Part shown: positions 2,706 to 12,100 of the stretch, piece after piece
How the letters are laid out: the number at the start of each line of letters is the position of its first letter
How positions within the stretch are numbered: position 1 is the first letter of the stretch
Source of the DNA: Deltaproteobacteria bacterium RIFOXYA12_FULL_61_11
Lineage (GTDB): Bacteria > Bdellovibrionota_F > JAHFAK01 > YA12-FULL-61-11
NCBI GenBank assembly: GCA_001799195.1
Contig: MGSU01000341.1
Span: 7,141 to 24,103, forward strand
Reading direction: 5' to 3'
Length of the DNA stretch: 16,963 nt
The notes under the pieces: model-generated
Seen by the model: only the letters and a program-made list of their open reading frames with translations
Told to the model about the DNA's origin: nothing
Databases searched by the model: none
Made by a program: the position numbers and the translations under genes

Positions 2706-3659
2706 TCAAGGCACGGGGGCGAGAAAGACGTTGTCCTCGTAGGTCCTGGCTACTTCCTCGGGGAGGGAGAACCTTTTCAAGAGGTTGAGAGCGGGATCGA
2801 GGAACCACGCGCCCTTGGGCAGGAGCTTGTCCTTGTAATAGGTCCAATACCAGGGGAGGTTCGCCCGGTTGTCGCTGTAATTGTCGCCACGCAGGCTACC
2901 GGGCAGCAGCATGGGCAGCCCGAGGAAGGGGTGGGTATAGGTGAAGAAATTGGTGAGGGTCGGGAGGTGGATGGGAAGCTGGAGCGTCGCCCACAGGAGG
3001 GTCGCGATGGGTACCAGGGTGTAGGTGGCTTCGCGCTCTTCCGGCCAGGACGGTTCGACGGGGGAGGTGTCGTCGAAGCGGTACACCAAGCGTCTCGAGG
3101 AGCTGATCTGTTCGGGATGGGTCACCGCGCGAACGCCATGGCCCTCGGCTTCGATGGTCATCATCGGATGACCATCCTCGAGCAAGGGGGGGGGCAAGAG
3201 AGCGCCTTGTTTCCCCTGTACCTCGGGGGAGGTGGCATAGGCCAGGATATGAGCATGGGCGATGGCTTCGACGAGGCGCAGGCGGCCCCAAGGACTGCCG
3301 TCTCGTTGCACCGTGAGTTTCAGACCCTCGAGATCGTTCTCGTGACAGATCTCGAGGGTGCAGAACCTGGCGTAGTCCCGAGGATGGAAGACGACGTAGG
3401 TGAGGAACCAATGGGTACGGGTGCTGACGACGCTGTAGTAGATCGTGCCGAGCAAGGGATAGTTGTCGAGATGTTCCCAGTTGTTCAGGGTGTTCAGATC
3501 CCCGTCGTAATCCAGGGCGGCGAGGAGATCCGCGCGGGGGTGATGGCCGATGAACTGGTGGAATACCGGGCTGTACCGGGCAGCCAGCTCGAGGTCTTCC
3601 TGTCCGTGCGCGGCAAAGGCACCGAGGAAGAATAAAACAATGATCGCGCCGAAGCGCAT
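2706..3659 (-). CDS. Secreted protein of unknown function, tandem paralogue (HENDLEG family)
   Basis: This 317-residue product starts with a typical Sec signal peptide (MRFGAIIVLFFLGAFAAHG). By eye it is about 60% identical to the neighbouring 314-residue protein over the first ~120 mature residues, sharing GHHPRAD, DYDGD, NNWE, YYSV, THWFLTY, FHPRDY, the two Cys before HENDLEG, LRL-E-IAH-ILAYA, EA-GHG, VEPSWP, PGSL-GDN, ANLPW and WFLDPA-NL. The conserved His/Asp/Glu residues could form a metal or hydrolytic site, but no known family is claimed. A GGAG core at 3664-3667 lies 4 bases before the ATG. A plausible promoter is at 3704-3732 and a perfect 6-bp stem is in the leader. It is the promoter-proximal gene of the pair, so the downstream copy probably arose by tandem duplication. 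Confidence 0.82.
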   Translation of the reverse strand: MRFGAIIVLFFLGAFAAHGQEDLELAARYSPVFHQFIGHHPRADLLAALDYDGDLNTLNNWEHLDNYPLLGTIYYSVVSTRTHWFLTYVVFHPRDYARFCTLEICHENDLEGLKLTVQRDGSPWGRLRLVEAIAHAHILAYATSPEVQGKQGALLPPPLLEDGHPMMTIEAEGHGVRAVTHPEQISSSRRLVYRFDDTSPVEPSWPEEREATYTLVPIATLLWATLQLPIHLPTLTNFFTYTHPFLGLPMLLPGSLRGDNYSDNRANLPWYWTYYKDKLLPKGAWFLDPALNLLKRFSLPEEVARTYEDNVFLAPVP

Positions 3660-3732: not shown

Positions 3733-3830
3733 GCATTTGATTGGATGCGGGGTGCGAGTAGCCGGAGCCAGGTACCCACAAGCGGGCCGGAGGAAGGTGC
3801 GCCTCTTGGTAGGCAGCAGGAAGCAAACCC

Positions 3831-3853
3831 GTCAAAAAGGATTCAGACCCCCC
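3831..3853 (+). repeat. Upstream transposase-flanking repeat (GTCAAAAA...CAGACCC)
   Basis: The sequence starting GTCAAAAAGG and ending CAGACCCCCC resembles, in the same orientation, the element at 4807-4825 (GTCGAAAAAAGACTGACCC) at the end of the transposase gene. Both pair a GTC + A-run with a GACCC end. Such direct flanks are expected for RAYT-type single-gene elements; assignment as the element's left end is an inference. Confidence 0.4.
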
Positions 3854-3875
3854 ACTAATCCCAATCTCCTCCCCA

Positions 3876-3922
3876 TCCCAGGTCGGACTTCGAAGCATCG
3901 AATCGGTTTCGCGAACGCCGAC
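3876..3922. repeat. Hairpin-rich palindromic repeat, REP-like, copy 1
   Basis: Bases 3876-3903 match 7081-7108 at 22 of 28 positions. The core is GGACTTCGA, a 4-base loop, then TCGAAT, so TTCGA (3889-3893) pairs with TCGAA (3898-3902). All four loop bases differ between copies while the stem is kept. In this copy an 8-bp palindrome TTCGCGAA follows at 3908-3915, and an outer GTCGG (3882-3886)/CCGAC (3918-3922) stem encloses everything. Its position just upstream of a RAYT gene fits a REP-like substrate. Confidence 0.5.
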
Positions 3923-4006
3923 AGAAGGTTTTGCTTGGATTCCCAAGAAGTTCAAAATAATAGACGTGCCGTCTGCCTGGCATCGATCCTGCTGTTTCCA
4001 TCGCCC

Positions 4007-4822
4007 ATGAACACAAGGGTCCCCCGATATCTCCAGTTCTCGGACGGCGCGCTGCTGCACATGTACTGGCAGTGTACCAACCACAACAAGCAGTACCTCC
4101 TCGAGAACGATGACCTCAAAGAGCTTTACCTGGAGCTGATAGCGAAGTACAAAAAGCAATACAATATCAAGCTGTTGGACTACGCGCTCATGGGCAACCA
4201 TCAACATCTCCTTGTCCGTATCTCGACAGTGGTGAAGTTCTCGCGGTTCCTGCAGAGCCTGCACACCGCGTTCGCCCGGCGGGTCAACAACCATTATGGC
4301 AACACCGGAGCCGTGGTCGAGAACCGGGTCAAGGTCTCGGTGGTGGAGGAGACCGACGAGGCGATCCTTTCCGTGCAGCGGTATCTCGCGCTCAACCGCT
4401 GGAACTGCGCCGAACGCACGCTGCCGCACGACTACCGCTACTGCGGCTTTCGGCACTACGCGGGGATCGAACGTGATGATCGCATCGACACCTCGGAGGC
4501 CTGGTTGGCCCTGGGCGAGACCGATGTCGAGCGTTGTGCTGCCTATCGTGAGATGGTAGAAGCTCATCGCCAAGAGCAGGGGGCACCCTCGCAGGAGCAT
4601 GACCATCTCCCATCCTTCTGCAGAGCGGTGGTGGAGCAGTTCGTACAAGCAGTTTCAGACTCATGGGAGCATGACGACCTCCCGTCCTTTTACAGCGGCA
4701 CCCCAGACTATTGCCGGACACAGACCGAGCGACTCCGCCAGGCTTTCCGCGAGCACAACCGGGCTCTTGCCGCTGCCCGGGCTCTGAGCCTCGATAGTTC
4801 CGACACGTCGAAAAAAGACTGA
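4007..4822 (+). CDS. REP-associated tyrosine transposase (RAYT, Y1_Tnp/HUH family)
   Basis: The product is a single-stranded-DNA nickase/transposase of the Y1 HUH family, which acts on short hairpin ends. From the ATG at 4007 it has 271 residues. HUH-type metal ligands appear as MGNHQHLLVR (H65, H67), where most relatives read MPNHVHLL; RYLALN contains the likely catalytic Tyr126, in the place of the usual rYihlNP. The YGNTG and ENRVKVSVVEE region fits the family core. The frame is open upstream to 3737, but residues before 4007 do not resemble the family, so I chose the internal ATG; no strong Shine-Dalgarno precedes it. The C-terminal third (~190-271) is an extension with a duplicated EHD(H/D)LPSF motif. 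Its last codons run into the right-hand flanking repeat (4807-4825). Confidence 0.85.
   Translation: MNTRVPRYLQFSDGALLHMYWQCTNHNKQYLLENDDLKELYLELIAKYKKQYNIKLLDYALMGNHQHLLVRISTVVKFSRFLQSLHTAFARRVNNHYGNTGAVVENRVKVSVVEETDEAILSVQRYLALNRWNCAERTLPHDYRYCGFRHYAGIERDDRIDTSEAWLALGETDVERCAAYREMVEAHRQEQGAPSQEHDHLPSFCRAVVEQFVQAVSDSWEHDDLPSFYSGTPDYCRTQTERLRQAFREHNRALAAARALSLDSSDTSKKD
4595..4695 (+). repeat. 72-bp-period direct repeat within the transposase gene
   Basis: Bases 4595-4623 and 4667-4695 are near-identical, both starting GAGCATGAC, and are spaced by exactly 72 bp (24 codons). They encode EHDHLPSF and EHDDLPSF. The in-frame period shows an internal duplication in the C-terminal extension. Confidence 0.6.
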
Positions 4823-4825: not shown

Positions 4826-4900
4826 TTCTTCCAGGTCAGCTCTTTGGTGATGTGCGAGGAAGGCCTTGGTGCGTCTTCTTTCCGGGGTAGCGCTCCCTCG

Positions 4901-5087
4901 CTTGCTGCCGGATCAACCCGATGGTACATTGGTCGGCATGGAGAAGGTGGTAGTGAGGGCTGCGTGTGGAAACCGAGTCCGGCTTTGGCAATGTCATTGC
5001 TTGCCGTCAAATCGGCCCGATGGTACCCTTGCCGGCATGGAGAGGGTTGTGATGAGGGATGCGTGTGGAAACCGAGTCCGGCTCTTG
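4901..5087. repeat. Two tandem copies of an ~88-bp repeat, 99-bp period
   Basis: Bases ~4901-4988 and ~5000-5087 align at a constant offset of 99 bp with few substitutions; the stretch GCGTGTGGAAACCGAGTCCG is identical in both. The copies share CCCGATGGTAC and GGCATGGAGA(A/G)GG. The period is a multiple of 3, so open frames cross it, but they have no ribosome site or recognisable protein, so I treat it as a noncoding repeat. It fills most of the 399-bp gap between the transposase and the AT-rich operon. It is not CRISPR-like: there are only two units, and they are long. Confidence 0.75.
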
Positions 5088-5123: not shown

Positions 5124-5152
5124 TTGACTAAATAGAAAGATTGTAAGATTAT
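5124..5152 (+). promoter_or_regulatory. Candidate sigma-70-type promoter for the receiver/kinase operon
   Basis: TTGACT (5124-5129, 5 of 6 to consensus), a 17-base spacer and GATTAT (5147-5152, 4 of 6) lie about 70 bp before the first ATG. The surrounding DNA is very AT-rich, so chance matches are likely. Confidence 0.35.
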
Positions 5153-5221: not shown

Positions 5222-5980
5222 ATGATTGAATTCTTTCGATCGTGTGATTGGATTGCAAATGTATTTGGGATCGTAGTAGTTCTGGTAACCTATGCGATCG
5301 GCTTATGGAAATGGTTACTATTTAAAATACGGATACAAAAAATTGATTCAGTAATTCCAAGTCAATTCGAATCGACATGGTCTGCCGCCAGCGGGAAGCA
5401 CATTGCTACCGTTGCCATTGTTGATGATCAACCTCTCGACTTCCCAATAGATGAATTAACGCTGGCTGGGTTCAATATTTCATCCTTTACGCAAGTTCAT
5501 TTGGTGGACATTCCCAAACTTGCTTCCTATGATATTGTTTTTCTTGACATAAAGGGTATCGTAAAAGATAACCCTGAGTACGGGGGACTTATATTGATTG
5601 CTGAGTTGCGTAGAATAAACCCAACACAAAAAATATGTGCAGTATCTAGCAGGACTTTTGATCCTACCGCAACTGAATTCTTCAAACAAGCAGACAGCCA
5701 AAAGAAGAAACCATTAACCGCACAAGAATGCAAAGCCGTAATTGAGACATTCATTCAGCAAGTTTTTGATGTGGCAAATGTAATTTCAAACGCCAGAGCA
5801 GTATACGCAAGCATGCCACCAAAGCAGAAGAAGGTGGTGCTGAATGATTTCAAGCATTCACTATTGCACAATGAAGGTGCTGATGTATTCGATTCAACGC
5901 TATCAGCGGCTAAGGTCAATACATCAGAAATGAGACGTGTCGTTGTACTTTTATACAGGATGATCCACCATGCATGTTAA
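5222..5980 (+). CDS. Membrane-anchored response-regulator receiver protein
   Basis: This 252-residue protein appears to be a phosphorylatable receiver tethered to the inner membrane. One transmembrane helix spans about residues 13-34, followed by a basic stretch and a linker. A receiver domain (~60-183) carries the full canonical set: acidic pair D68/D69 in VAIVDDQP, phospho-acceptor D109 in IVFLDI, S142 or S143 at the end of the fourth strand (CAVSS), and K163-P164 (KKKPL). The C-terminal ~70 residues (185-252) look helical and contain no helix-turn-helix or enzymatic motif that I recognise. AAAGGAG at 5211-5217 supports the start. The stop overlaps the next gene's start by 11 bp, so the two are translationally coupled and the neighbour is the likely phosphodonor. 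AT-rich codon use marks it as foreign to the window. The receiver call is strong; the output is unknown. Confidence 0.85.
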   Translation: MIEFFRSCDWIANVFGIVVVLVTYAIGLWKWLLFKIRIQKIDSVIPSQFESTWSAASGKHIATVAIVDDQPLDFPIDELTLAGFNISSFTQVHLVDIPKLASYDIVFLDIKGIVKDNPEYGGLILIAELRRINPTQKICAVSSRTFDPTATEFFKQADSQKKKPLTAQECKAVIETFIQQVFDVANVISNARAVYASMPPKQKKVVLNDFKHSLLHNEGADVFDSTLSAAKVNTSEMRRVVVLLYRMIHHAC

Positions 5981-7073
5981 GGATCTATTCTCAACAGGCG
6001 CAATCAAACAGCCATGGCCCTTGATGGTGAATGGGACCGTCATCGGTATCTCTGAAATGGGTATTTCGAAAACCTGTAAAAATAAATGTGGTCGACAACC
6101 CGCATGTTCTGAACATGCTCAAGAGGGGGAGCATACTTGCAAGCATGGGCTCTCATGTCTCAGTACCAGTATTGCGAATAACAGAGTCACTGTATATGGG
6201 GTACGTGGTGAAGAAAATAACACACCAATAAATTTCTTCAATCGTGCAGGGCTAAAAGGGCGCTCGATCACGAAGAAAGAATTTGCCGAGTGGGTCATCA
6301 CTGTCAATAGATTACTTAGTGGATTCGAATCGGAGTTCGGAAAAAGGCAGGCCGAAATGCTCGACCCACTTCATGATATTACACGGCTTGCAAAGCAAAT
6401 ATCGATTATCTCAAATCGCATCGTTCAAGCCGACGTAACCAGCGTTGCGTATGAGGAGCAAGTTGATAATGCGTCGCCCGAGTTGAAAACATTGGTGAAG
6501 GCAGCCGATCTCCTAAACGATTCGTTCGATTTACTCGTGATCTATTTTAATCCTGCTGCGGCAAAATTTGGCGGTGTACACTCGATCAACATGCACGGCT
6601 TGTTGAGAAAGCTGGTTGCAATATTCTGCATTGACTATCACGGTGAAATAGTGACAGATTCAAAAATCCAATTATCCGGCGCGTGCTACACGAATGTATC
6701 AGTATATGAGAGCTTTAAACTCATCCCGTTTGCGATACTTACAAATGCTGTTAAGTATTCTCTTGAAGGGATAATCCGAGTACTGGTAACGGATTCTTGC
6801 CCCATTATCCATGTATCTGTTGAATCAATAGGGCCGTACATTGAGGAGAATGAGCGCGATATTATCTTCCATAAGAAAGGGCGTGGAAAGTGGGCATCTA
6901 CTTTAAGAGATGGCAAGGGTGTAGGGCTCTATCTTGCCAGTGTCATTGCAAAAGCTCATGGGATCACAATCAAGGTCAGTAGCACAACGAACGGTAAAAA
7001 ATTGCAAGGGAATATCCCCTTGGCTATGAATATCTTCTCCTTTGCAATAGATTCTAGAGTACCGTTGCCCTAG
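5970..7073 (+). CDS. Soluble histidine kinase-like protein with N-terminal Cys/His cluster
   Basis: The 367-residue product has no obvious transmembrane segment. The N-terminal region (36-63) has five Cys (C36, C40, C46, C57, C63) and three His (H49, H55, H59), a possible metal, Fe-S or redox site. Residues ~118-195 look like a two-helix dimerisation/phosphoacceptor hairpin with H135 in LDPLHDITRL. Residues ~205-360 form a HATPase_c-like domain: N-box ILTNAVKYS (N259) and glycine-rich DGKGVGLYLASVIAKAHG (314-331). The usual DxGxG box reads ESIGPYI (285-291), so the canonical Asp is replaced by Ser; nucleotide binding may be altered. The ATG at 5970 is preceded by AGGA (5957-5960) and overlaps the receiver gene by 11 bp. 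It is probably the cognate kinase of that receiver. The signal it senses cannot be read from the sequence. Confidence 0.82.
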   Translation: MHVKDLFSTGAIKQPWPLMVNGTVIGISEMGISKTCKNKCGRQPACSEHAQEGEHTCKHGLSCLSTSIANNRVTVYGVRGEENNTPINFFNRAGLKGRSITKKEFAEWVITVNRLLSGFESEFGKRQAEMLDPLHDITRLAKQISIISNRIVQADVTSVAYEEQVDNASPELKTLVKAADLLNDSFDLLVIYFNPAAAKFGGVHSINMHGLLRKLVAIFCIDYHGEIVTDSKIQLSGACYTNVSVYESFKLIPFAILTNAVKYSLEGIIRVLVTDSCPIIHVSVESIGPYIEENERDIIFHKKGRGKWASTLRDGKGVGLYLASVIAKAHGITIKVSSTTNGKKLQGNIPLAMNIFSFAIDSRVPLP

Positions 7074-7113: not shown

Positions 7114-7173
7114 GTATCATTATCGGTCAGGAAACCGGCTGATTTTTTTATGGGGGATAAATGATAATGATAC
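7114..7173. repeat. 11-bp perfect inverted repeat at the right edge of the AT-rich island
   Basis: GTATCATTATC (7114-7124) and GATAATGATAC (7163-7173) are exact inverted copies, separated by 38 bases that contain a T-tailed hairpin. They could be a large stem-loop, a paired protein-binding site or a recombination end; no matching copy was found at the left edge of the island. Confidence 0.5.
7127..7149 (+). terminator. Weak candidate intrinsic terminator after the kinase gene
   Basis: TCAG (7127-7130) and CTGA (7139-7142) form a 4-bp stem, extendable by a G-T pair, followed at once by seven T (7143-7149). The stem is short, but it is enclosed by the 11-bp inverted repeat, which would add stability in RNA. 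Confidence 0.35.
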
Positions 7174-7315: not shown

Positions 7316-8353
7316 ATGTCCACGGTCCTGATCAATGCTCCGGCTTCGCCGGTCCTCGGAGGGGGTCATCTCGGTCGCTGCCTGCGTTTGGCCGAGGCTT
7401 TTTCTCTTCGGGGGCATGAGGTCGTCTTCCTGTTGGCCGACCTTGGAGGCGGCTTTCCCGACCGGGTACTCGAGGCAGGTTTCCCTCTCGAGCTGAGCCC
7501 TTCGAGCGGTCCGGCTATTGAGTTGGCCTATCTGCGTGAGGCGGCCCGACGGTTCCGGGCCGACCTGCTGGTTCTCGACCGCTACGATCTCTCCTCCAAG
7601 ACCGAAGCCGAGTTCTGCGCCCGACTCGGTCGCACGGCGTTGATGGTGCTCGACGACTGCTATGTGGCCCATACTTGCACGGTCCTGCTCAATCACAACC
7701 TCTACGCAGAGGAGGCCCGCTATCGTCGCGAAGCGTTGGTGCCGCCGACGACCTTGGTGCTGGCCGGTCCCGACTATGTTCTCTTTCCCCCGGACCTGCC
7801 CACCTACCGTCGCGACCATCGGAGCCCCTGTGCCGCACCGAAGGTCCTCGTTTCCCTGGGAGGGTCCGTGCAGAGAGACCTCCTGGGCCGCGTGCTGCCG
7901 CTGCTGCACAAGCTCTTGCCTCTCGACGCGACCCTGACTCTGGTTGCCGTGCCTTCCTCGGACGAGGTCCCCCTGCTCCTCCTCTCGAGGCTGCAGGAAG
8001 AAGGCCGGAACGTACGTCTCCTGCCTCCCCAACCCTCCCTTCTTCCCCTTTTCCACGAGGCCGATATTGCGGTGACCGGAGGGGGCGTCAGCGCGATCGA
8101 GGCCGTTGCCCTCGGGGTGCCCTTGTTGGTGGTGCGGCTGGCCGAGAACCAGGCCCTCAACACCGCCTATCTCGACGCCAAGGGTCTGGCGGTGGTGGTG
8201 GAGCAGCCGGAGGTTGACGCGCACCTCGAGAGGGGGTGTGCCGAGCTGCTCGGTCCGGCATGGTCCGGATTGCTCCCCCGCCTGGAGGCCCTGCACCTGT
8301 CGCCCGGAGGGGGGGCCGTGGTGGCCGCGGTCGAGCATTGCCTCGGTTGGTGA
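7316..8353 (+). CDS. pseG: PseG-like UDP-sugar hydrolase (nonulosonic acid pathway)
   Basis: PseG removes UDP from UDP-2,4-diacetamido-2,4,6-trideoxy-beta-L-altrose in pseudaminic acid synthesis; homologues serve related nonulosonic sugars. The 345-residue GT-B-like protein has the family motifs in order: LGGGHLGRCLRLAEA with the catalytic-type His18, LVLDRYDL, MVLDDC, NHNLYAEE, LAGPDYVLF, KVLVSLGGS (second domain), and EADIAVTGGGVSAIEAVALGVP followed by AENQ. Length matches the usual ~280-360. GAGAGGG (~7300-7306) precedes the ATG by 9 bases. It is followed after 75 bp by a pseF-like gene, almost certainly one operon. The other pathway genes (pseB, C, H, I) are not in the window. The exact substrate is inferred. 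Confidence 0.82.
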   Translation: MSTVLINAPASPVLGGGHLGRCLRLAEAFSLRGHEVVFLLADLGGGFPDRVLEAGFPLELSPSSGPAIELAYLREAARRFRADLLVLDRYDLSSKTEAEFCARLGRTALMVLDDCYVAHTCTVLLNHNLYAEEARYRREALVPPTTLVLAGPDYVLFPPDLPTYRRDHRSPCAAPKVLVSLGGSVQRDLLGRVLPLLHKLLPLDATLTLVAVPSSDEVPLLLLSRLQEEGRNVRLLPPQPSLLPLFHEADIAVTGGGVSAIEAVALGVPLLVVRLAENQALNTAYLDAKGLAVVVEQPEVDAHLERGCAELLGPAWSGLLPRLEALHLSPGGGAVVAAVEHCLGW

Positions 8354-8428: not shown

Positions 8429-9175
8429 ATGACTCTTCCCCGTCTCCGCACGTTGGCCGTGATTCCCGCTCGCGGCGGTTCCAAACGCTTGCCGCGCAAG
8501 ACCGTGCTCCCCCTCCATGGGAAACCCCTTCTCGCTTGGGTGGTGGAGGCGGCAGCACGCTGTGGGAGCCTCGACCGGGTGATCTGTTCCACGGATGACG
8601 ACGAGATCGCCGAGGCCGCGCGCGCTCACGGTTGCGAGGTGCCGTTCAAGAGGCCGGCGGAGTTGGCCTCCGATACCGCGACCACGATCGACGTCCTCCT
8701 GCATGCTGTAGATACCCTCGAACGCTCGGGCGACCGATACGACCGCCTCGTCCTGTTGCAGTGCACCTCTCCCCTGACCACCTCGCATCACATCGAGAAG
8801 GCGCTCGAACTGCACGCCGCCGCAGGCCGGCCCAACCTGGTCAGTGTCTGTCCGGCCGACCATCCTCCGGCCTGGATGCTGCGCCTCGATCAGTCCGGGG
8901 CCTTGCATCCGCTGCTCGATCCCGAGCTGCTCAACGCGCGCAGCCAGGATCACCCCCCGGCCTTCCGGCCCAACGGAGCGGTCTTCGTGGCCGAGGTCGA
9001 GAACCTCCGACGTGCCCAGTCATTCCATGACCCGGCGCCGACCGCTTATCTGATGCGGCGCGAGGATTCCGTGGACATCGACGACCGCGTGGATTTCCTC
9101 CTTGCCGAGGTCTTGTTGCGTCTGCGGTTGGAGGAGGTCGAGCGGACGGCGGTTGGAGTTCCCGTCATTCGGTGA
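8429..9175 (+). CDS. pseF: CMP-nonulosonate cytidylyltransferase (PseF/NeuA family)
   Basis: This cytoplasmic enzyme joins CTP to a nonulosonic acid (pseudaminic-, legionaminic- or sialic-type) to give the CMP-activated donor for glycosyltransferases. The 248-residue product has the signature AVIPARGGSKRLPRK (10-24), CSTDDDEIAE, LLQCTSPLT (109-117), NGAVFV, and SVDIDDRVDF (214-223) with the metal-binding Asp pair D216/D218. Length is typical (~230-250). AGGAGG (8415-8420) lies 8 bases before the ATG, an excellent match. It is paired with the upstream pseG-like gene, which favours a pseudaminic-type product over Neu5Ac. Its 3' end overlaps the convergent penicillin-binding protein gene by 11 bp. 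Confidence 0.88.
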   Translation: MTLPRLRTLAVIPARGGSKRLPRKTVLPLHGKPLLAWVVEAAARCGSLDRVICSTDDDEIAEAARAHGCEVPFKRPAELASDTATTIDVLLHAVDTLERSGDRYDRLVLLQCTSPLTTSHHIEKALELHAAAGRPNLVSVCPADHPPAWMLRLDQSGALHPLLDPELLNARSQDHPPAFRPNGAVFVAEVENLRRAQSFHDPAPTAYLMRREDSVDIDDRVDFLLAEVLLRLRLEEVERTAVGVPVIR

Positions 9176-12100
9176 AGAAATCCACCAGGCGATGCCAATT
9201 GTCGCGATCCATCAAAACCTCGACGCACGCGCAGCCCTCGCCGCTCTCCGGACAGCGTTCGCCCCGGGCGCAACCCTCGCAGTCCCGGCTCTTGGCATCG
9301 TTCTCGGGTAAGCCGGTACGACAGTCCACGGGCACGAAGTCGATCATGGCCTCGCCGTAGTCCATGGCGAACTCGCTGGTGTGCTTGTCGCTCATGGTGA
9401 CATCGTCTTGCTGGTCGCGCGTGATCCTGTCCCGGTAGTGGTGTAGTTCGCCGACCAAGCGAGCGAAATGCACCCAGGGAGGAGCCGCACCGTTGGAGCC
9501 GGTCACGCGGTAACCGCCCCGGCGCATCCGGGTGTTGTCATCGTACCCGGTGTAGGCGACCACGGTGTAGAGGTCGCGGACCGAGAGGTGGGGCGTTGTG
9601 CCCTGGAAATAGGGTTGGTACCCGGCGAAGAGCGCATTGGTATAGTCGTTGGTGGTACCCGTCTTCCCGAACAGCGGTAATTCGATTCGGCCGTCCTCTA
9701 CCTGGAAGGCTGCGCGGCGTTTGTAATCCCTGGCCGTACCGACCTCGAAGACCTTGCGCAGGAGCGAGAGCAGCATCGGCGGCAGCGAGGGGTCGGTCAA
9801 ACGCCGCTCAAAGGGAATCCTCTGGTAGATGGGTTCGCGGTCGGGATCGCAGGCGATCGCCGCGGCGCCTCCAGCCGGTGGCGGAAAACAGACTTTCTCC
9901 ACCAGGGCGAGCCGGTTGCCCTTGTCCTGGTAGACCAGGCCATGCGCCATGGTTTCGTAGATCAAGGCCACTTCTTCCAGCGAGAGGGCATTGGAGCCGA
10001 GGGGGAAGGAGAGGACTTCTTCGATGCGGGAACGCACGCCCATGCGTTCGAGCATGAACCGCAGGTAGCGCAAGCCGACCAAGACCCTGAAATCCCTCAG
10101 ACCGTGCAGCACCCGAGGTTGGTAGACCAGGTTCCCCGGCAGTTCGGCCTTGGCTTTCTCGAGCCCTTCTGAGAGTTCCTCGACCAGCTCCAGCGGCAAG
10201 AGCCCTTCCAACAAGACAGCCTCGGGGGGCGAAGCCTTTCCCGCGAGCCCGAGCAATTCGGCCAAAGGTACGGCTAGGGCTTTGGCATAGCGCTTGGTGG
10301 GATGCTCGTCGGCAAGGCCCGGGGCCTTGGGCACGGCCTCGCGGTCGAGGCGGAACTCCGGTTTGAAGAAGAGCAACTCCTGGGTGTCAGGGTCTTTTCT
10401 GAAGGCGGCGAGGGCGGTGTCGAGGCGCGAGCGTTCATCCCCGAGGAGCATGCCCTCGACCAACTCGGCCAGAGAGGTGTCGTCTTCCGTCATTCCCTCG
10501 CCCCGTTGGCGCAGCTCGGCCAGGAAGGTCATGGTTTCGAGAAGCGTCGTCCGTGAAGCCTCCAGGCGCACGAACGAAAGGTCGAGCAGCTCGAGGCGAC
10601 GGTACCGCTCCTCGAGGTCGTCTTCCAACTCCGCCGCGACTTTCCGATCCCGAGCGGTACGCAACTGTCCGATCCGGTCCGTCAACTCCTGCAGCACGAC
10701 GTTCCTCTGGCGTTCGAAACCTTCGCCGTAGCGCAAGCTCCTGAGCCGTCGGAGGTGTTCGGGGGAGCGTTCACCGAAGACTTTGTCGAGCTGGACCTCG
10801 GCCTGGATCTTCTCGAAGCGGAGGCTCAGCAGGGCCGAGTTGTCGAGGACGATACCGTGATCGCGGATGCGGCGGGTATAGTCGCCGGCGCCCTCGTTGG
10901 GTCGAGGCGCCAGACCGACTTTCTCGACCAGATCGAGGAATTGATGCTCCCCGAGCAGGTCACAGAGGTGGTAGAGCAGTTCGATGCTGGCGAGGTTCTC
11001 GGAATAGGCGTTGACCCACGCCAGGGACATCTCGGTCGCGGTCGGCTGGTGGTCGGGCCTCGGGAAGTAGTAGCTCCCCGCATAGGTGTAGATCTTGCGC
11101 AGGTTGTCCACCCGGTCGAGCGGATGCCATCCGAGTTGGAGCGCCGCGTACATGAGTACCGGCTTGAAGACCGAACCGACCTGGCGGAAGCTGTCCAGGG
11201 CGCGATTGAAATCGCGGTTCTGGAAGCCCCCGACCATGGCCAGGATGCGGCCGTGGTCCAGGACCAGGAAACCGCCCTCCACGCGCGGTAGTTGTTCCAG
11301 ATCGAGGATGAGGGAGGTTTGATCCTCCCCCGATCGGTTCGGATCCTTCTCCGGTCGGAGCTCCCTCACGCTGACCAGGACCGGGGTGCCGGGTTTCAAG
11401 GCTTGCAGGGCTTTGATCCTGCGTTCGACGGTGTCCTTGGGCCAACCTTGGTCCTCGTGCAGGAAAGCGGAGGCCAGGGTTTCGTGCAGCCCCACCTCGT
11501 CGATGGTGCCGCTACGGCCCTGGAACTCGACCAGGATCTTGTGCCGTTTCGGATCCTTGCCGGCCTCGACGGTCTTGACCGTACCCTGATGGAAGCTCCA
11601 CTGCTCGAAGGGGCCGGCCGAGGGAACATCACTGCTCTGATCTCCTTGCAAGGCGCGAAGACCGTTGAGACGGATGTCGAGCTGCGAGAGGTGTTTGCGC
11701 ATGGCGTAGAGCGCGGTGGCCTGGAGCTCCTTCTCGATCGTGGTCACGATGGAGAGGCCGGCCGTGGTGATGTTGTTGATACCCGAGGCCTCAAGCAGGG
11801 CCGAGAATTCTTCGCCCTCGAGTTCCTCGCGGACCTGGTCGAGGATGACGTTGGACTGGAAGCGGAACTCGCCCATGCGAAAGGGGATGGCCGCGGCCAG
11901 GGCCTTATCGCGCTGTTGGGCCGTGATTTTACCCAGGCGGAAGAGGTTGTTGATGACATAGTCTTTGCGCTCCTCGGCCCTCGCCGCTACGCGTTCTTTC
12001 GTCTCCTTGTCCCGATGCAGGAACGGGGTGTAGCGGAAGGGACCCTTGAGCGAGCAAGCAATGAACGCGGCCTCGACCAGGTCGAGGTCGGCCAAGGGTT

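Follow-up and report, generated by a model that had tools for sequence, protein, structure and literature searches.

How might a two-component pair act when its receiver sits in the membrane, its kinase is soluble, and neither protein has a recognizable output domain? Such a pair lies in a 16,963-nucleotide stretch of DNA (the window) from Deltaproteobacteria bacterium RIFOXYA12_FULL_61_11. An earlier reading of the letters alone (the sequence-only reading) had proposed an undescribed system here, possibly a mobile signaling or defense module. The two open reading frames that it described, overlapping by 11 bp on one strand, were confirmed. Gene A (5222..5980, plus strand) encodes a 252-aa receiver protein in which a TM helix and a receiver domain are followed by two more helices and a tail of low prediction confidence; gene B (5970..7073, plus strand) encodes a 367-aa soluble histidine kinase with a Cys-containing N-terminal region, a DHp hairpin, and a HATPase domain. 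Gene A starts with ATG and has AAAGGAG upstream. The pair is flanked by a promoter-like site (5124..5152, plus strand), in a region where the number of such sites is no higher than in shuffled sequences, and by a terminator-like hairpin and T-run (7122..7143, plus strand).

The surroundings also matched the AT-rich island beside a transposase and repeats that had been reported. GC content is 42.6% in the pair and 61.9% in its flanks. Upstream lie a transposase-like gene (Y1_Tnp in Pfam; 3737-4822) and, adjoining it, two tandem copies of an 85-bp element (4900-4984 and 4999-5083; 82% alike) that is dispersed across the genome of origin (35 matches). The transposase-like gene, accompanied by REP-like repeats, resembles genes for RAYT-type Y1 proteins and does not look like the carrier of the pair. 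Around the island, Pfam identified a sugar transferase (67-1341), a GT28-like (PseG-like) protein (7316-8353), and a CMP-sugar cytidylyltransferase (8429-9175), which suggests an envelope polysaccharide or nonulosonate locus. The pair stands alone between the RAYT-like transposase with its REP-like repeats and these nonulosonate or envelope genes, and no integrase or defense gene was recognized beside it in the stretch read. Elsewhere in the window, two tandem paralogues of ∼315 aa (1640-2584 and 2706-3659, minus strand) are 49% identical and predicted to be secreted; a Pfam scan of the first gave no match.

Kyte-Doolittle hydropathy agreed with the earlier assignment of one TM helix to A and none to B. 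Residues 11-29 of A (IANVFGIVVVLVTYAIGLW; codons 5252..5308, plus strand) form a single, strongly hydrophobic N-terminal helix (mean, 2.17), and the best 19-residue mean in B is 1.29. By the positive-inside rule, the Lys and Arg residues that follow the helix suggest that the receiver of A is cytoplasmic. The Pfam Response_reg match to A was weak (E 0.0064, below the cut-off), and the domain was examined by three further tests: alignment, structure, and a candidate-defense library. The AlphaFold2 model of A (mean pLDDT, 70.7) comprises an N-terminal helix (residues 2-44), a receiver fold (about 62-181), and two helices reaching residue 216. Foldseek searches with this model returned response regulators, with receiver-only targets aligning at 2 to 3 Å; RMSD was large over full-length targets because linker and tail regions differ. 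Weak matches to Tma16 and RprY were dismissed. The receiver site, which the sequence-only reading had called complete, consists of D68/D69, D109 (the predicted phosphoacceptor; codon 5546..5548, plus strand), S142/S143, and K163. In an alignment of 22 receivers, D68, D69, D109, and G122 were invariant, S or T occupied position 142, and K163 was kept in 21 of 22. In A and in those relatives that were scanned, Pfam detected no DNA-binding or enzymatic output domain, and the alignment of 22 receivers added none, in agreement with what had been read from the letters.

The kinase assignment held equally well. HATPase_c matched B above the Pfam cut-off (1.6e-7), and an AlphaFold2 model built from an 11-row alignment (mean pLDDT, 63.6) predicted a DHp-like hairpin (residues 102-154 and 170-193) and an ATPase fold at ∼203-361. 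H135, the predicted phosphoacceptor (codon 6372..6374, plus strand), falls in the first helix of the hairpin. The matches listed by Foldseek for this model were histidine kinases, and a profile of B matched kinases in the PDB at up to 5e-22. Across 21 aligned kinases, H135, N259, Y263, G315, G317, and G319 were invariant. Invariance of the His and Asp sites argues that the phosphorelay is in use and not merely inherited. Judged by sequence, the pair is a two-component system, its features being a phosphoacceptor His within the predicted DHp hairpin, the N and G boxes of the HATPase domain, and a full receiver site.

The N-terminal 100 residues of B were poorly predicted by AlphaFold2, and the N-terminal region had no Pfam match. 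It contains a Cys motif (residues 36-65; codons 6075..6164, plus strand) with C36, C40, C46, C57, and C63, ending in CKHGLS. The motif is common to B and the kinase of its nearest relative, and recurs as C..C..CPxG or C..C..C(P)xG in many other relatives; this region may sense metal or redox state. Four kinases (L100, L102, L123, and L148) have no Cys at all in the N-terminal region, so the cue probably differs between members. A PocR-like sensor was considered for the motif and rejected, given the lack of a Pfam match and the poor AlphaFold2 prediction of the region.

A PADLOC search assigned PDC-M43A to A, PDC-M43B to B, and nothing else. A matched PDLC04646 (PDC-M43A) at E 3e-8 over profile positions 73-199 of 203, and B matched three PDC-M43B models (PDLC04647, 3e-11; PDLC04650, 8e-6; PDLC04648, 4e-5); the bit scores of the window pair were 31.7 and 41. 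The PDC-M43A model had one match in the genome of origin and none in 14 well-known control genomes. The PDC-M43B model had matches in 11 of the 14; because it shares the general HATPase domain, a PDC-M43B match alone is non-specific. A pair on a Phaeobacter plasmid and the nearest relative of the window pair also match PDC-M43 models. By its sequence features, then, the window pair is a divergent member of PDC-M43, a candidate phage-defense system in PADLOC-DB 2.0, with the 11-bp overlap taken as adjacency and judged apart from PADLOC's exact score and distance rules. The profile and structure searches proposed alongside the sequence-only reading recovered kinase and receiver folds and matched both proteins to PDC-M43, and its description of the system as undescribed no longer stands. 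PDC names denote in silico candidates from a guilt-by-embedding survey, most of them without validation (2026, PMC12988326). Our literature search found neither a mention of PDC-M43 by name nor a defense assay on the pair or any relative. A figure legend in the machine-learning survey with DefensePredictor includes HATPase and REC among the domains of predicted, unvalidated defense systems (2026, PMC13092281); this prediction may or may not be the A-B pair, on which the accessible text of that paper is silent.

Pairs of this kind were found in about 22 divergent lineages, 15 to 28% identical to the window pair, on viral contigs and plasmids, in phage records, and in E. coli and other whole genomes. 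B directly follows A in every lineage, the 14 measured junctions ranging between an overlap of 25 bp and a gap of 3 bp. A search with the receiver only, across 793 genomes (398 Pseudomonadota and 395 Bacteroidota species), returned nine receivers in eight genomes at E below 1e-16, weaker matches being ordinary regulators; a kinase lies directly beside the receiver in 9 of 9. Two outcomes would have spoken against the sequence-only reading, namely homologues that are always ordinary kinase-regulator pairs with a DNA-binding output and a lack of conserved pairing outside this genome, and neither was observed. Occurrence is patchy: the pair is present in ∼1% of the Pseudomonadota and Bacteroidota species sampled, in 1 of 295 Enterobacteriaceae species, and in 4 of 5,426 complete E. 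coli genomes. No pair was detected among 398 Bacillota species, an empty result that proves little, and the window's own phylum was represented by two genomes only. The nearest relative (L141, from the Pseudomonadota genome G478) has the same Cys motif and the same N-terminal TM helix, with 28% identity to the window over nearly the whole kinase and 27% over the TM helix and receiver. Two different copies of the pair occur in a single Bacteroidota genome (G923).

Other searches were less productive. Viral contigs searched with the window kinase alone, or with a two-row receiver alignment, yielded nothing, and a scan of genome contigs with a generic N-box pattern returned almost only ordinary kinases. 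Plasmid kinase matches beyond Phaeobacter were mostly generic KdpD-like kinases. A Nostoc match proved to be another kind of pair, whose response regulator is separate and encoded on the opposite strand, and two further loci were false positives, one an ordinary OmpR-type pair (L039) and the other a hybrid kinase (L026).

Comparison of the 22 receivers bears directly on how A might act. An N-terminal hydrophobic helix is present in six (the window, L141, L147, L145, L013, and L008), and in none of these six is the tail hydrophobic (≤0.57 for the best 19-residue mean over the final 35 residues). The remaining 16 lack the N-terminal helix, and all of them have a hydrophobic C-terminal stretch with 19-residue means of 0.77 to 1.55, a range reached at its lower end (0.77) by 11% of 129 soluble control proteins of similar length (tails versus controls, Mann-Whitney p 1e-9, uncorrected for relatedness). 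Each receiver thus likely has exactly one membrane segment, either an N-terminal helix or a C-terminal tail, which is new information. The moderately hydrophobic C-terminal tails might insert into the membrane, and the N-terminal helices of L013 (1.38) and L145 (1.51) are themselves modestly hydrophobic. In a concatenated tree built without L008, N-anchored forms occupy two places: one comprises the window, L141, and L147 (L147 weakly supported), and the other, L145 and L013, is nested beside the tail-bearing L144 and L146. The anchor therefore seems to have switched ends.

The sequence-only reading had offered residues 185-252 of A as a possible route of output, and this idea fared poorly. 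Nearly all of that region is absent from L013, L145, and L008, which have little or nothing after the receiver, and the smallest forms (L013 and L008) comprise only a TM helix joined to a receiver by a linker; in A itself, the last third of the region is modeled at pLDDT below 50. Since the shared element is a receiver plus one membrane segment, the comparison points away from residues 185-252 as the general route of output and toward the membrane segment itself, or a contact at the membrane, in that role. The inverted layout, with a membrane receiver and a soluble kinase, is supported.

The genomic settings of the relatives point to mobile elements and defense. In E. coli FORC_081 and A14, the pair (WP_001572526/WP_001572525) lies exactly between psu and the integrase gene (int) of a P4-like satellite. 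According to Rousset et al. (2022, PMC9122126), the P4 psu-int slot is a reservoir of anti-phage systems that differ between elements, several of them proven, and TM proteins in defense systems are presumed to act as cell-killing effectors; the accessible main text of that study mentions no histidine kinase or response regulator system. At another locus (L159), the pair is flanked by an integrase and, on the opposite side, by HsdM and HsdS of a type I restriction system; an integrase also lies near the pair at L156, and a gene with a weak TIR match adjoins it at L162. Further copies are carried by a conjugative Phaeobacter plasmid, a 6.2-kb Kosakonia plasmid, and several proviruses. Others are chromosomal with no mobile element in view, and several, the window's included, stand alone among housekeeping genes. 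GC content of the pair was below that of the flanks at 14 of 14 loci. The suggestion of a mobile or defense module is supported for the relatives, with their P4 slot, type I restriction-modification, plasmid, and provirus positions, and is not supported at the window locus itself, where no integrase or defense neighbor was recognized.

Three neighboring features were recorded in passing. Beside the pair-carrying E. coli P4 satellite, an integrase-flanked segment contains an sce7725/sce7726-family gene pair (L107:3564-5344), the second protein of which matches the PADLOC model "cll" at 1e-21. In G923, a gene located a few genes from the pair encodes a 263-aa protein that has a TM-like segment near its N terminus and gave no Pfam match (L160:14543-15334). 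At L163, the gene immediately preceding the pair, in the same orientation, encodes a 914-aa protein without a Pfam or PADLOC match (9251-11995).

Taking these data together, we favor, with somewhat better than even confidence, a two-gene, two-component module of the PDC-M43 type that is most likely anti-phage (abortive-infection type), in which phosphorylation would switch a membrane-bound receiver. That scattered relatives occur in viruses, on plasmids, and within phage satellites suggests a device for self-protection that is triggered by viruses. Also in favor are the PADLOC match of both proteins, the invariant catalytic residues, adjacency, the predicted folds, the defense and mobile settings, rarity, and the membrane segment. 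Against it we counted the position of the window locus among envelope-polysaccharide genes with no integrase or defense neighbor, the moderate hydrophobicity of the tails in most relatives, and the non-specificity of a PDC-M43B match alone. In such a module, soluble kinase B would sense an intracellular cue of infection in the cytoplasm, perhaps via its Cys-containing N-terminal region, and autophosphorylate at H135. The phosphate would pass to D109 of receiver A, which would sit at the membrane through its one hydrophobic segment. The change in phosphorylation at D109 would switch the state of A, for instance its oligomeric state, and the switched protein would then act at the membrane, arresting or killing the infected cell; the membrane is proposed as the site of action because A has no other output domain. 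Phosphorylation may activate or restrain A, the sequence being compatible with either. More tentatively, the pair could be a minimal immune system in which the receiver, gated by the kinase, would itself be the membrane effector; one segment at either end would be its whole output, and phosphorylation alone would decide whether it is quiet or damages the membrane.

The Cys motif in many kinases, the lack of a recognizable toxic domain, and the solitary copies among housekeeping genes, including that in the window, are also what would be expected of a mobile stress-signaling pair with no role in defense. Here the kinase would sense redox state or metal, the membrane receiver would control a membrane protein by contact, and the fitness benefit to element or host would be unrelated to phage. 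We consider this unlikely, as the P4 psu-int, type I restriction-modification, plasmid, and provirus positions and the rare, patchy occurrence fit defense better. Copies on the conjugative plasmid, the 6.2-kb plasmid, satellites, and prophages, together with the tight two-gene overlap, raise a further alternative: that the pair serves the maintenance or conflicts of its carrier element other than against phage, by excluding competitor plasmids or satellites or as an addiction pair whose kinase restrains a membrane-active receiver. That function appears improbable, given the chromosomal copies with no mobile element in view and invariant phosphorelay residues that a simple toxin-antitoxin pair would not need. 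Finally, the below-cut-off Pfam receiver score would suit a decaying fragment of an ordinary two-component regulator that has lost its output domain, a very remote prospect that is already contradicted by intact frames, retention of the catalytic residues across about 22 divergent lineages, conserved pairing, and the absence of a DNA-binding domain from every relative.

If the anti-phage reading is correct, two small proteins forming a two-component phosphorelay would suffice as an entire immune system, and the candidate PDC-M43 would gain a concrete mechanism, built on conserved His and Asp sites and on a receiver that is bound to the membrane and has no other output. Given the copy in the E. 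coli P4 satellite, this is directly testable with standard laboratory phages. New here are the conserved phosphorelay sites, the rule of one membrane segment with two topologies, and the E. coli copy in the P4 hotspot.

Among known systems, the window pair resembles PDC-M43 in its two adjacent genes for a receiver-like protein and a HATPase protein, and differs in that its receiver has an N-terminal TM helix plus a C-terminal region. Likeness to the P4 psu-int hotspot systems lies in the position of the E. coli relative exactly in that slot. Detocs, whose regulator carries an enzymatic effector domain, is likewise a defense system made of two-component parts. It comprises three genes, encoding the kinase DtcA, the buffer DtcB, and the response regulator DtcC (PMC11728103). 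In contrast, the pair has two genes, with no DtcB-like buffer and no third gene conserved around it, and its receiver lacks an effector domain, with nothing after it but short helices or a hydrophobic tail; identity with Detocs was rejected on these grounds, and PADLOC gave only PDC-M43. With canonical HisKA/HATPase kinases and receiver-only regulators (T. maritima HK853-RR468; CheY-like), the pair shares the catalytic core, the His and Asp sites, and the folds. Unlike them, it has a soluble sensor whose N terminus has no Pfam match, places the receiver in the membrane, and is mobile and rare.
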